Below, piece after piece: positions 3,810-11,891 of a stretch of 13,156 nt of DNA. The number at the start of each line of letters is the position of its first letter. Within the stretch, counting starts at the first letter, position 1. This stretch comes from Promethearchaeota archaeon (GTDB taxonomy: Archaea > Asgardarchaeota > Lokiarchaeia > Sigynarchaeales > SOKP01), in contig SDNV01000080.1 in NCBI GenBank assembly GCA_004524515.1, forward strand, positions 1-13,156, written 5' to 3'. The notes beneath the pieces are model-generated. The model was not told where the DNA came from. It saw nothing but the letters and a program-made list of their open reading frames with translations, and did not search any database. The position numbers and the translations under genes are program-made.

Positions 3810-4178
3810 TCAGATTAATTTAGCGATTTTTTCGCATGTTCTTTTACAATCCAGAAAGATCAGACCCAATCTGACGTCTTTTGTAGTTGAGACGGTCAAA
3901 ACCGCATTTTGTCCTGCGGATAAAACAAGCAAATATCCACTGGAGCCCTTCACATAAACTTGTTCAAATTCTCCTTTATTCATCTCTAAAGCAGCCCGCT
4001 CTGCTAAACTTAAAAGGGCAGCGGTCATTGCCGCAATTCGCGTTTCATCAACACCTTGTGGTAATGCTGAAGCAATTGGTAAACCCTCAACAGAAACTAT
4101 TGCGGCGGCTTTAACCTCGGGAATTGCTGCTAAAAGTTTTTTAAGTATAGTATCTAATGATTCCGGGGTTGACTCCAT
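3810..4178 (-). CDS. Roadblock/LC7 domain protein
   Basis: The 122 residues form a single roadblock/LC7 domain. An N-terminal helix (SLDTILKKLLAAIP) leads into the strand and turn VKAAAIVSVEGLPIASALP, then the long helix ETRIAAMTAALLSLAERAALEM and the pair of strands EQVYVKGSSGYLLVLSAG and NAVLTVSTT. A C-terminal helix (LDCKRTCEKIAKLI) closes the domain. Roadblock proteins dimerise and bind small GTPases; bacterial MglB acts as a GAP for MglA, and LAMTOR/Ragulator members scaffold Rag GTPases. A role with the GTPases further along the window is inferred from family knowledge only. The ATG at 4178 has GGAG about 12 nt upstream. Two lines of the gene that I counted are 40-43% GC, against about 28% in a line of the kinase gene, suggesting stronger codon selection or a different history. 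Confidence 0.92.
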   Translation of the reverse strand: MESTPESLDTILKKLLAAIPEVKAAAIVSVEGLPIASALPQGVDETRIAAMTAALLSLAERAALEMNKGEFEQVYVKGSSGYLLVLSAGQNAVLTVSTTKDVRLGLIFLDCKRTCEKIAKLI

Positions 4179-6633: not shown

Positions 6634-7854
6634 TTAAATAATATTTTCTGATTTAATATTAGAAAGAATCGGTTCATAATCTGCAATTTCTAAATCTTCT
6701 AATACTTTAGGATTAATTTTTTGTAAATTATTAAGGATTTGAATTAAATCAGCATCTTTGAATCCATGATACGTTTTATCATAGAATCCTTTCAGAATTT
6801 TTACAAAATTCTCGTAACTTAAGCTTAAATTTTGATCACCTCTACTAATAATCATTGAGATAAATTTGGAGATCTCATAAAATGAAAAATTTTTGGAGAT
6901 CAACAATGCAACTTTGCTAAAGTCTAATTTGTTATTATAAAGATTCTCATTTATAACAGTACTTATTCTTTTTATATTTATAATGGAATTATCAATCAAA
7001 TACTTAAAAGCTTCAGCAAGAACAAATGAGGCTTTAACATTAAAAATAAAAACTATCAGATTTGAAAGAGAGCGATTTTCATATAAGTAATTCGCTATAA
7101 TCATCGCTAATCCAATAACCTGATCACTAACATAACAAGGATTTTCTAATAATTTTAGATCGGGAGTATCTAAGCTTAAGATCTGTCCAATAAGGTTGAA
7201 TATGATTTTATTTGAAATGTTAGCATGAGTTGCTCCAATTAATAAATCTGAAACAGATTTAATCTCTAAATTCAGATCAGATGATAGGATTCGAATAATT
7301 TCTATTACATAATTTGAATTTAAAACACTAAATCGTATTAATGTTCCTAAAAATCTTCCAATTCTTATACAACTTGCATAATCATCTTGTATTATCTTTT
7401 TTAAAATGTCTGCTAATTGTTGATTATTAAAAAAATTATTTATAATTAAAAATTCGATAATTTGGGAAATCTGATATCCCATATCCCCCTCATGATCGAT
7501 TTGTAAAAATCCCCCAATAATTTTACTTATATCATATCCGTTATTATGTAATTTTAATAAAGTTCGGGAAGGTAATACTACATATTTCCTCTCATCTTCT
7601 TCATTTCCATAATAATATGGGGCTCTTAAACTAAAAACTTCTATAAAAAAAAAAGAAATTAGATATGAATTAAAAAGGCTTTTTATAATAAAAAAAGATA
7701 GACATTCAATGGAGTCTTCATTATTGTAGGTTGAAAGGATTTTCTGAAAAAATGTTATTACCTTCTCTAACTTGTCTTCAAGATTTTCATTTGAATTTAT
7801 TAAAGTTTCTAATTCTTTTTTATCCTCGGAGTTAAGAAAATCATATAGTACCAT
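6634..7854 (-). CDS. Unrecognised helical-repeat protein, 406 residues
   Basis: I do not recognise this protein. It has no signal peptide, no metal or nucleotide motif and no strong transmembrane helix, apart from one hydrophobic aromatic stretch (about 52-76, FFIIKSLFNSYLISFFF). From about residue 130 on it looks like a series of amphipathic helix pairs of roughly 33-47 residues: IIEFLIINNFFNN (132-144), LGTLIRFSVLNSN (169-181), SDLLIGATHANIS (202-214), GLAMIIANYLYEN (248-260), EAFKYLIDNSI (281-291) and VALLISKNFSFYE (315-327). Each is followed by a second hydrophobic helix. This resembles alpha-solenoid proteins of the HEAT/ARM sort, which usually act as scaffolds. The start is ATG at 7854. 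It is divergent from the GTPase-LRR-membrane gene, 89 nt away, so the two may share regulation. Composition (Asn, Ile, Leu, Ser) follows the low GC of the region. Confidence 0.8.
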   Translation of the reverse strand: MVLYDFLNSEDKKELETLINSNENLEDKLEKVITFFQKILSTYNNEDSIECLSFFIIKSLFNSYLISFFFIEVFSLRAPYYYGNEEDERKYVVLPSRTLLKLHNNGYDISKIIGGFLQIDHEGDMGYQISQIIEFLIINNFFNNQQLADILKKIIQDDYASCIRIGRFLGTLIRFSVLNSNYVIEIIRILSSDLNLEIKSVSDLLIGATHANISNKIIFNLIGQILSLDTPDLKLLENPCYVSDQVIGLAMIIANYLYENRSLSNLIVFIFNVKASFVLAEAFKYLIDNSIINIKRISTVINENLYNNKLDFSKVALLISKNFSFYEISKFISMIISRGDQNLSLSYENFVKILKGFYDKTYHGFKDADLIQILNNLQKINPKVLEDLEIADYEPILSNIKSENII

Positions 7855-7943: not shown

Positions 7944-10382
7944 ATGGCGGCACTGAATAATTTTTCTTCAGGAGAGCATTCGGTTAAAGTGATTGTAGTG
8001 GGTGATTATAAAGCAGGTAAAACTTCGATAGTAAAGAGTTTAATCGATGAGCACTTTAATGATAAATATGAACCTACTATTGGATTTGAGATTTCAAAAA
8101 AAGTTCTTTCTATTGATAATAGGAATATTAAATTCAGTATATGGGATACTGGCGGTTTAGTCAGTCAGATTCCTCCTAAAAAAGAAAAGATTTTCTATCA
8201 TGCTGATGCTGCTCTAATGATAATCGATAGAACTCAACCGAACAATTTAAAAAGTATTCAAAGATTTTATAATGATATAAAAAACTCAATTTCAAAACAA
8301 ATTCCTATTATAATAATAGGGACTAAGAATGATTTGCCTGCTGATAAAGAAATTAATGATGATGATATCAAAAACGTAGCAGATCAGTATGGTATATCCT
8401 ATATTTCTACTTCAGCGAAAACAGGTAATAATATTAATAAGGTTATAATTGAATTAACCCACCAAATTATTGATATTTTAACGAACTTAGAAATTCATAG
8501 ATTAAAAAATAAATATAAACACTATTACTTGAGCTCCGATGAATATAAGGCCTTAGAGGATTTAGAGCAATTTATTATAGAAAATTCAACGAAATCATTT
8601 ACTCCTAAAATTCAATACAATTTACATAATCTTAAAGATAAAGGATTTCCCGTTACCTCGGATATACATGAAACCTCAATTGGTATCAATATTCAAAGTG
8701 GAAACGTAATTGAGATTGGATTGTTTAATTGTGGATTAACCTCCTTACCTGATTCTTTTAGAAATTTTAAATCTCTTAAAAAATTAATCCTAAGATGTAA
8801 TCCCCTTACATCATTTCCTGAATTGTTAACCAAATTACCTTCTCTTGAAGTTTTAGACCTATCTCTTACTAACTTAAATACTATATCTGATACAATTGGA
8901 AATTTAGAAAGGCTTAAAGAACTTCATTTAGAGAATAATTTCCTAAGGACTCTCCCTGAATCGTTTGGAAATCTGAAAGCTTTAACAATATTAAATCTTA
9001 ATAATAATCCAGTAGATCATTTACCAGGATCGTTCGGAAATCTTACATTACTCGAAAGCTTATTATTGGAGTCTGCTCCATCCGATCCTAGTGGATATTT
9101 AATAAAACTCCCTAAAAATTTTGGTAATCTTCAAAATCTCAAAGAATTGGATTTAAGTTCTCATAAATTAAGTAAACTTCCTGAATCTTTTGGAGATTTA
9201 ACAACTTTAAAGATTTTTGATTTATTTAATAACAGATTTAAAACACTCCCTAATTATATTGAAAATCTAAAATCATTAGAATCAATAAATCTGGAGAGAA
9301 ATTTGATACAATCCATTCCCCGGTCCTTTTCTAATTTACTCCATCTAAAACAAATAAATTTAAAAAATAATATAATCAGCCCAAAAGAAGCATCTAAAAG
9401 ATTTAAAGCATTTGGCTTCAAGTCTGTGGGAAACGATTATGAAAGATGGATGAAAATAGCAGAGTCAATCGAGAAGCAGGAAGATCAAATGCAAATAATT
9501 AGATCTGAGATTAAGGAGAAAAGAATTATTAAAAATATCATTGCTCCCCTTATATATTGCTGCACTATTGCTTTTATAGGGCTGCTAACATTCTTGACTA
9601 CGAATATCTCATCTCAAACTTATGATTTTATTATTATTTTGATTCTTTTTTGCTGTGCGCTGGTAATAAATTTCCTCATAGGCACTTCAATTATTTCTAC
9701 AATTTCTAGCTATTTTAAAATATCTGTTTCAAAATTTGGAATGACAATTCAGAGGAATATTCTTAAAGTATTTGATATATTCGTTGCAATTCTATTAGTA
9801 TGGGCAATAAGAGCCGCTGTCTTAGCTGCCTTAAGTGTAGAATTAATACCGGCGATTAATTTTTTGTTTGAATTTTCTATTCCCGATTGGATTTTAAATA
9901 TCTTAGTACTTTTTGGCTATAATATCGATCTTACATTTTTAGAGAATTTGGATCTTTTCCTGGGTCATTTTTATCTTAAATTATTTAGTGCTGCATTAGT
10001 ATTTTGGGCGTTATATCGAAATGGGCTAAGCTATATCAAAAAAACTGCCTTTGATGAGATGGAAAATAAAAATTTACGGATTTTTCTTATAATTGGCCTA
10101 TTTGGAGCATTTTGGTTGGCGATCATGACCTATAGTAACCTAAAACCGTTATTGAGTATTGGTTATTATATAGGAGTATCACTAGGTGCTTTTGTATTCA
10201 TATGGGAAAAAAATAAGGATAATAAAATAATATTTTACCTATATCTCACAATTTTTGGATGCGGTATCCTATTCGTCTGGTTGATTTCTTTTTGGAATTT
10301 AATTATTTCACTCTTAATTGGAATTATTTTTATCTTCCTTTTTTTCATTTTAAGATGGAAATCTCACAATATTCCCATATGA
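7944..10382 (+). CDS. Rab/Ras-like GTPase fused to leucine-rich repeats and a polytopic membrane domain
   Basis: The 812-residue protein has three parts. The G domain (about 13-180) has P-loop GDYKAGKTS (20-28), switch I YEPTIGFE (42-49, T45), G3 WDTGGLV (67-73), G4 GTKNDL (126-131) and G5 STSAKTG (155-161). In G3 the position of Ras Gln61 is Leu72. Next come nine leucine-rich repeats of 23 residues (about 255-467) of the type LxxLxLxxNxLxxLPxSFGN, plus a capping unit to 491; the sixth unit is 29 residues. A charged coiled linker (about 495-530) leads to about eight hydrophobic helices (530-803), so the G domain and LRRs probably face the cytoplasm. Unlike ROCO proteins (LRR-Roc-COR), the GTPase comes first and no COR domain is visible. 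The ATG at 7944 starts just before the G domain. The role is unknown; a membrane-anchored GTPase receptor or scaffold is inferred. Confidence 0.9.
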   Translation: MAALNNFSSGEHSVKVIVVGDYKAGKTSIVKSLIDEHFNDKYEPTIGFEISKKVLSIDNRNIKFSIWDTGGLVSQIPPKKEKIFYHADAALMIIDRTQPNNLKSIQRFYNDIKNSISKQIPIIIIGTKNDLPADKEINDDDIKNVADQYGISYISTSAKTGNNINKVIIELTHQIIDILTNLEIHRLKNKYKHYYLSSDEYKALEDLEQFIIENSTKSFTPKIQYNLHNLKDKGFPVTSDIHETSIGINIQSGNVIEIGLFNCGLTSLPDSFRNFKSLKKLILRCNPLTSFPELLTKLPSLEVLDLSLTNLNTISDTIGNLERLKELHLENNFLRTLPESFGNLKALTILNLNNNPVDHLPGSFGNLTLLESLLLESAPSDPSGYLIKLPKNFGNLQNLKELDLSSHKLSKLPESFGDLTTLKIFDLFNNRFKTLPNYIENLKSLESINLERNLIQSIPRSFSNLLHLKQINLKNNIISPKEASKRFKAFGFKSVGNDYERWMKIAESIEKQEDQMQIIRSEIKEKRIIKNIIAPLIYCCTIAFIGLLTFLTTNISSQTYDFIIILILFCCALVINFLIGTSIISTISSYFKISVSKFGMTIQRNILKVFDIFVAILLVWAIRAAVLAALSVELIPAINFLFEFSIPDWILNILVLFGYNIDLTFLENLDLFLGHFYLKLFSAALVFWALYRNGLSYIKKTAFDEMENKNLRIFLIIGLFGAFWLAIMTYSNLKPLLSIGYYIGVSLGAFVFIWEKNKDNKIIFYLYLTIFGCGILFVWLISFWNLIISLLIGIIFIFLFFILRWKSHNIPI

Positions 10383-11354: not shown

Positions 11355-11891
11355 TTATTTTAAATATTGGGCAGAATCCAGCATTTTTCGGGATATAATA
11401 GAAAAAATTTCTTCCACATTTTCTCCCGTTTTGGAAGAACATTCAATAAACTCAAAAAAATTATATTTTTTTGCCATTTCACTTCCCTCTTCCTTGGAAA
11501 TGACTCGCTTTTCTTCTAAATCAGTTTTACCTCCCACCATAATGAGAGGGATATCGATAAATCGGCTTTCAAAACTCTTTTTAAACACTTCAAGCCAACT
11601 TTCCACATTTTCAATGCTGGAATGGCGGGTTATATCATACATAAAGATTCCTCCCGAGGAGCCTGAAGCATACGTGGGTAAAAGAAATCGGAATTTATCT
11701 TCTCCGGCAAAGTCCCAAATCTGTAATGTAACGTCTTTATTATTGGTTTCTAATTTTTTAATATAAAAGTCTGCTCCTATTGTAATTTTATAATCTCCCT
11801 TAAACGTTCCAGTTAAGTAGCGATTCACTAATGTAGTTTTACCTACGCCACCATCACCAAATACGCATACTTTAAATTTTGCAAATGGTAT
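11355..11891 (-). CDS. Ras-like small GTPase, array member 1, with non-canonical (ATA) start
   Basis: Read from 11891 the protein is 178 residues and aligns without gaps, through about residue 130, with the next paralog (12132-12662). It has P-loop GDGGVGKTT (12-20), switch I KITIGADF (35-42), G3 WDFAGEDKF (59-67; Glu64 where Ras has Gln61), G4 GGKTDL (120-125, Gly for the usual Asn of NKxD) and G5 CSSKTGEN (151-158). No C-terminal prenylation cysteine is present. The first standard start in frame is GTG at 11828, but that lies after the P-loop and would give a dead protein. An in-frame TGA at 11898-11900 leaves only AGG, ATT and ATA ahead of the P-loop. The ATA at 11891-11889 sits 11 codons before the first P-loop Gly, exactly like the paralog's ATG, with AAGGTGA 6 nt upstream. 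Alternatively, an ATG at 11910 in another frame would join if one A of the A4 run (11877-11880) were removed, so a frameshift or assembly error is possible. Confidence 0.8.
   Translation of the reverse strand: MPFAKFKVCVFGDGGVGKTTLVNRYLTGTFKGDYKITIGADFYIKKLETNNKDVTLQIWDFAGEDKFRFLLPTYASGSSGGIFMYDITRHSSIENVESWLEVFKKSFESRFIDIPLIMVGGKTDLEEKRVISKEEGSEMAKKYNFFEFIECSSKTGENVEEIFSIISRKMLDSAQYLK

Follow-up and report, generated by a model that had tools for sequence, protein, structure and literature searches.

An Asgard archaeal protein that joins a Rab/Ras-like GTPase, leucine-rich repeats and an orphan membrane domain read as eight helices

Close relatives of the eukaryotic Rab/Ras switches occur in Asgard archaea, where little is understood of their action on membranes. 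Among better described systems, FeoB places an N-terminal cytosolic G domain and a polytopic membrane domain in one chain, and the LRRC8 volume-regulated anion channels carry leucine-rich repeats (LRRs) after their helices and have no GTPase. One report describes Roadblock domains fused to Ras- and Rag-like GTPases in Lokiarchaeum (PMC4917890); a second names RB, longin and domains of unknown function as the partners in MKD1 Roadblock-GTPases, and the words LRR, leucine and transmembrane are absent from its main text (PMC10933270). In SHOC2, a conserved concave face binds switch I and switch II of GTP-loaded MRAS (PMC9452295). Our search of titles and abstract beginnings among the matches listed, mostly in the open-access literature, found no published description of an architecture that combines a GTPase, LRRs and a membrane domain. 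Here we analyze such a protein, encoded at positions 7944-10382 of a 13,156-nt stretch (the window) of the forward strand of contig SDNV01000080.1, from the Promethearchaeota archaeon assembly GCA_004524515.1.

The gene is a single long plus-strand open reading frame (ORF) with an ATG start that encodes 812 residues. A Rab/Ras-like G domain at residues 15-176 (positions 7986-8471; Pfam Ras, E 1e-34) is followed, all on the plus strand, by a 78-residue linker (residues 177-254; 8472-8705), 9-10 LRR units (residues 255-480; 8706-9383) covered by several Pfam LRR families (LRR_8, E 4e-25), a juxtamembrane segment (residues 481-526; 9384-9521), and an orphan membrane domain (residues 527-808; 9522-10367). 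A search with residues 515-812 returned 46 proteins, the 812-residue protein counted among them, all at E < 1e-61; Pfam finds LRRs in all 46 and a Ras domain in 37, and in these 37, our protein included, GTPase, LRRs and membrane domain stand in the same order. An earlier note, made from the DNA letters, had proposed just such a fusion, with an N-terminal Rab/Ras-like G domain, about ten LRR units and about eight membrane helices, and had asked whether it is conserved in Asgard homologues: it is, and each part is recovered, the tenth repeat being partial. An assembly chimera is ruled out, because the part order is kept in 37 of 46 homologues and the three flanking genes are syntenic with a second contig, JAHPZA010000010.1.

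The reading we prefer, to which we give about an even chance, is that a small-GTPase cassette controls an eight-helix membrane effector by way of a cis-acting, SHOC2-like LRR in Asgard archaea. The Rab-like GTPase, preceded by a Roadblock-type domain in 23 of the 37 relatives, and the LRR scaffold would both be cytosolic; the GTP-bound G domain would dock, in cis or on a neighbouring copy, onto the conserved concave face of the repeats, and docking would be relayed through the juxtamembrane segment to the membrane domain, altering its activity, be it transport, a channel, or chemistry at an invariant cluster of E, N, D and H residues. The switch, with Leu or Phe in place of Gln, would remain in the GTP-bound state for a long time and would depend for its reset on a partner, which may be the fused Roadblock domain where there is one and perhaps a free Roadblock protein where there is none, as for the 812-residue protein. 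A bolder version, which seems to us improbable, makes the protein a G-protein-gated Asgard transporter or channel whose membrane fold is new, and has the LRR-RAS contact seen with SHOC2 in animals already working in cis.

The G domain carries all five of the G1-G5 motifs of a Rab/Ras domain (P-loop GDYKAGKTS, switch I PTIGF, G3 WDTGGL at 8142-8159, G4 TKND and G5 SAK) but not the catalytic glutamine. Leu72 occupies the site of Ras Gln61, and over the 37 GTPase-bearing members this position holds Leu in 28, Phe in nine, and Gln in none. The P-loop glycines and lysine, the switch-I threonine, K117 and D119 are found in 37/37 and D57 in 36/37; position 12 is mostly Tyr (26/37), position 13 mostly Lys (29/37), and position 116 is Thr in 27, Asn in five and Ser in five, so that G4 reads TKxD in 27. 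In the genome that carries the syntenic contig (G001), position 61 is Gln in 18 GTPases, Glu in 11 and Leu or Phe in none, these 29 having been parsed by motif pattern from the 30 strongest among 87 Ras matches; the fusion ranks among the remaining 57. A hydrophobic residue at 61, as in Ras Q61L, is expected to slow hydrolysis, and the replacement of Gln by Leu or Phe thus predicts a switch that stays GTP-loaded for long and needs a partner for its reset.

The earlier note had also set the protein apart from ROCO proteins by its reversed order and by the lack of a COR domain, and both statements hold: the LRRs (residues 255-480) lie C-terminal to the G domain, and a Pfam scan of the whole protein at E ≤ 0.1 shows no COR family. 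The linker, with its conserved KYK.Y.L...E..AL.DLE and SFGI.I.NG.V motifs, has zero Pfam matches at E ≤ 10 and is 78 residues long (73-81 across the 37 Ras-bearing members), which together rule out a COR hidden there. Descent from a ROCO protein by loss of COR and rearrangement of the domains is therefore very hard to credit, all the more since the Ras profile is the better fit to the G domain and, through the Roadblock-type N-terminus found in relatives, the family is linked to the Asgard Roadblock-GTPases.

The LRR units start at residues 255, 278, 301, 324, 347, 370, 399, 422, 445 and 468, the last being partial. The unit at 370-398 (9051-9137) is an irregular 29-residue repeat and a signature of the family, with E376, L389, P390 and L396 invariant in 37/37. 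The nearest PDB sequences to the LRR are Leptospira LIC11098 (E 3e-46) and SHOC2 (E 4e-46). The concave positions 3, 5, 7, 8 and 10 have a mean entropy of 1.29, versus 2.11 for the convex positions (p 2.7e-5); for positions 5, 7 and 8 alone, picked after viewing the values, it is 0.83 (p 6e-8). The juxtamembrane segment that follows, with the motif KFKALAFKS.G..Y.RLM.IA, is basic near the first helix (loop 0, residues 505-530: mean K+R 6.09, D+E 4.39), and its Pfam match to Dbl7 (E 0.0078) is below the cut-off.

Residues 527-808 are hydrophobic, and no 19-residue window before 527 passes the same cut-off. An AlphaFold2 model of the membrane domain from the 46 sequences (mean pLDDT 68) shows long helices that we read as eight spans, with two short helices within an outer loop besides. 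Mean K+R values over the 46 sequences in the nine loops, with helix ends set by hand from this model, are 6.09, 0.57, 2.11, 0.43, 4.07, 0.04, 1.3, 0 and 1.72, a pattern that fits eight predicted spans with both ends cytosolic. The same topology fits relatives with LRRs both before and after the membrane domain (e.g. P0014, P0026 and P0028). Since the charges alternate with both ends inside, the GTPase and the LRRs should face the cytosol, and with the LRRs there a classical LRR ligand receptor is unlikely. The earlier suggestion of a membrane receptor or scaffold with its own GTPase switch is partly supported.

The membrane domain has no sequence relative in the collections searched. Pfam gives no family for it at E ≤ 10, and the best match among 11 members has E 0.21 and is unrelated; NCBIfam, searched with the same 11 domains, gives V-ATPase subunit C at E 0.0067 in one, which we take as chance; and a profile of the 11 finds no PDB sequence at E ≤ 10. 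The structure comparison that the earlier note had called for, run with Foldseek and VIA on a weak model (pLDDT 68), gave no convincing match to a solved fold, an outcome that carries little weight. Within the domain, 15 polar or aromatic residues are invariant in 46/46 sequences (Y538, N576, S588, Y590, K592, D611, W620, R623, E633, Y659, N668, D670, H675, W688 and R804); of these E633, Y659, N668, D670 and H675 (9840-9968) lie in an acidic outer loop and at the start of helix 4. Judged from sequence, such residues may point to a site of activity or binding and not to an anchor.

This bears on an alternative that we consider possible but clearly less likely, in which the helices serve only as an anchor that replaces the lipid anchor of Rab proteins, the LRR recruits cytosolic partners, and the output of this tethered GTPase scaffold is cytosolic. 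The G domain indeed lacks a free C-terminal tail to which a lipid anchor could be attached, LRRs bind proteins and the concave face is conserved here, and Ras-family GTPases are numerous in a relative (the 87 matches above). Mere anchoring, however, would not need 15 invariant residues; the membrane domain has the lowest entropy of the six regions (1.16, versus 1.65 for the GTPase and 1.28 for the LRR, in a set gathered by that domain); and it is also found without the GTPase, in 9/46 members (P0027 and P0045 named partial, P0038 possibly start-truncated). A further alternative, unlikely in our view, reverses the flow of information: the outer loop would sense an ion, lipid or ligand, the membrane domain would act as an exchange or activating factor, with a logic like that of G-protein-coupled receptors, and the LRR and GTPase would be the output. 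In its favour, outer loop 3 is acidic (mean D+E 3.74, K+R 0.43) and holds the invariant E633, with N668, D670 and H675 following; and some relatives consist of LRR and membrane domain without the GTPase, which could then be a later addition (on a midpoint-rooted tree).

The family is real, narrow and patchy. All 19 of the 46 members that have an organism name are Asgard (Promethearchaeota, Loki-, Hermod-, Hod- and Helarchaeota), and a pattern scan of contigs from 84,980 species gave five loci, all titled Lokiarchaeota or Lokiarchaeia. Across 227 genomes from the phylum to which G001 belongs, a profile search that scored at most 10 candidates per genome gave eight with a match at E ≤ 0.001. Six of them, at E < 1e-100, have the family; the other two reach 1.1e-5 (L033) and 9.9e-4 (L034). 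The L033 fragment (925-1200) corresponds to the C-terminal end of the membrane domain, is broken by six stops and precedes the same gene that follows the intact copy in L032, for which reasons we read it as probably a decayed copy; the L034 match runs opposite to a longer frame and is attributed to chance. A weak and tentative match in L011 (E 6.7e-4) is a separate hydrophobic frame of 174 residues. The set of 46 is not exhaustive, because a further member (P0063) was reached later through the GTPase part.

Among members that lack the GTPase, six (P0014, P0026, P0028, P0040, P0045 and P0046) have LRRs flanking the membrane domain on both sides, and with P0044 they make up one well-supported side of the membrane-domain tree. 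A search for standalone membrane domains, limited to scoring the 7999 candidates with the most words in common, yielded 16 proteins, of which 10 have no Pfam domains and are 157-360 residues long. Of these 10, eight are on contigs under 4 kb, and the two whose sequences were inspected (P0047 and P0052) start within the LRR and look truncated; a standalone form is thus possible but unsupported. A GTPase-LRR protein without the membrane domain is not supported: a length-limited search with the GTPase part gave 30 proteins, 18 with LRRs, of which 17 have the membrane domain (16 already among the 46, plus P0063) and P0062 breaks off in the LRR; the other 12 (P0064-P0075) have no LRR in Pfam. An origin as a virus or phage gene was likewise rejected, with no tblastn match in phage records and no relative encoded by any of 119 pattern stretches in viral contigs; in a viral structure library, the named matches among those listed are LRR, F-box and small-GTPase proteins, the rest being uncharacterized.

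In 23 of the 37 GTPase-bearing proteins, about 145 extra residues precede the G domain (97 in one of them, a partial protein). The 812-residue protein has no such extension: about 12 residues precede its G domain, and the 600 bases upstream contain many in-frame stops. An AlphaFold2 model of one extension (P0007; pLDDT about 80) has the element order a-b-b-a-b-b-b-a, the order of Roadblock domains. Built from 14 of the 23 extensions, a profile pairs with the N-terminal regions of six further Asgard GTPases (96.3%, E 1.8e-9), and these in turn match eight PF03259-positive Loki Roadblock proteins (96.9%, E 1.5e-10); the direct comparison of the 14 with the PF03259-positive proteins is weaker (63.6%, E 6.8e-5), and a control with the membrane domain gives 0.2%, the E-values holding for single comparisons. 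Five of the six Asgard GTPases were scanned with Pfam, and Robl_LC7 appears below the cut-off in three (E 0.074, 0.0029 and 0.00032). The Pfam scan of the 14 extensions gives one match each to LAMTOR5 (E 0.13) and MAPKK1_Int (E 0.035), mixed with unrelated families (best E 0.019), and a PDB profile search lists dynein roadblock at E 0.12 and E 0.69 next to unrelated proteins (E 0.056 and 0.17). From profile comparison and predicted fold, the extension is taken as Roadblock-type. On the membrane-domain tree its presence changes seven times, with at least six changes forced by well-supported branches and gain indistinguishable from loss.

The window itself also encodes a free Roadblock/LC7 protein (3810-4178, minus strand; Pfam E 1.1e-20), which is not adjacent to the fusion gene and is a possible partner for a GTPase without a Roadblock domain of its own.

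Several points weigh against control of a membrane effector by the GTPase. The departures from consensus in the G domain (TKxD in 27/37, Asn at 116 in five, Tyr and Lys at positions 12 and 13) leave nucleotide binding predicted, not proven. The contact of G domain and LRR is our inference, with a full-length model of pTM 0.47, and part of the concave conservation is forced by the repeat consensus itself. An effector activity of the membrane domain is putative, its model being weak, and the apparent conservation of this domain is favoured by the gathering of homologues with it. Seven of the nine GTPase-less members group together on one side of a supported branch, which implies that the membrane domain is able to function in the absence of the switch. 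The Roadblock signal is weak against Pfam and PDB, its rows (E 0.12-0.69) falling below or among unrelated ones, and the extension appears dispensable, because its presence changed so often on the tree. Finally, no conserved partner emerges from the neighbourhood, since none of the three flanking genes was found in loci L002-L005.

The three flanking genes lie beside the fusion also in the syntenic locus (L001, on the 700-kb Lokiarchaeota contig JAHPZA010000010.1), where they are 48-71% identical: a membrane protein with a weak CTP_transf_1 match (66%), a HAD hydrolase (71%), and the divergent 406-residue neighbour (6634-7854, minus strand; 48%), for which no family was found, with no Pfam or NCBIfam match and no tblastn match at E ≤ 1e-3 in L002-L005. 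The L001 locus has one extra gene, and small GTPases lie on the other side in both loci. A promoter scan found 20 matches versus 19.5 expected. The listed ORF of one small GTPase in the window (11355-11828, minus strand) begins at a GTG after the P-loop; its frame is open upstream to about 11905, through GDGGVGKTT to RIIPFAK, with no ATG, GTG or TTG there, and the L001 homologue has an ATG, which suggests that either the start codon is unusual or a base differs.

Other fusions of small GTPases occur in G001. Eight further long GTPase regions of this genome, a subset, show neither an LRR motif nor a strong span; in the six scanned with Pfam, the C-terminal module is TPR in two, PAS in one, and PAS with HATPase in one. 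Among these, an Arf-like GTPase is fused to PAS domains in L067 (793-3582, minus strand) and L068 (1768-4245, plus strand), the former with a histidine-kinase-type ATPase domain as well, apparently a Lokiarchaeote GTPase joined to a two-component-like module. A Ras-type GTPase with a long TPR array is encoded in L065 (2032-4713, plus strand) and L066 (1822-4152, plus strand); the N-terminus of both looks Roadblock-like by eye, with no Roadblock among the Pfam matches listed. The family described here may be one branch of a wider Asgard habit of welding a GTPase to an output module. Its conserved chain, which unites the switch with the LRR and the membrane domain and in many members adds a Roadblock-type regulator, offers a single purifiable object for the question of how GTPases act on membranes; the gene of the orphan membrane domain also encodes the logic of its control.

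Compared with known systems, the family shares with the Asgard Roadblock-GTPases the pairing of an N-terminal Roadblock-type domain with a small GTPase, in 23 of 37 relatives though not in the 812-residue protein itself, and differs from them in the added LRR and membrane domain. With SHOC2 it shares an LRR for which SHOC2 is one of the two nearest PDB sequences, and the conserved concave face; SHOC2, however, binds a separate RAS protein and PP1C, whereas here the GTPase and the membrane domain share a chain with the LRR, and RAS-type binding is predicted. ROCO proteins such as LRRK2 and C. tepidum Roco likewise hold a Ras-like G domain and LRRs in one chain, but the fusion has its LRRs after the G domain, no COR, and a polytopic membrane domain. 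From LRRC8 it differs in that LRRC8 has its LRRs after the helices and no GTPase, and at the sequence level the profile of 11 membrane domains shows no relation to the LRRC8 pore domain (PDB, E ≤ 10). FeoB has a similar layout, its cytosolic G domain standing at the N-terminus of a chain that also contains a polytopic membrane domain, and FeoB_N matches three of the 46 members (best E 0.0013); the Pfam searches of the membrane part described above show no FeoB membrane domain. With a G domain of Ras type, LRRs in between and a membrane part without a Pfam family, the fusion may best be seen as FeoB-like in logic, not in descent.
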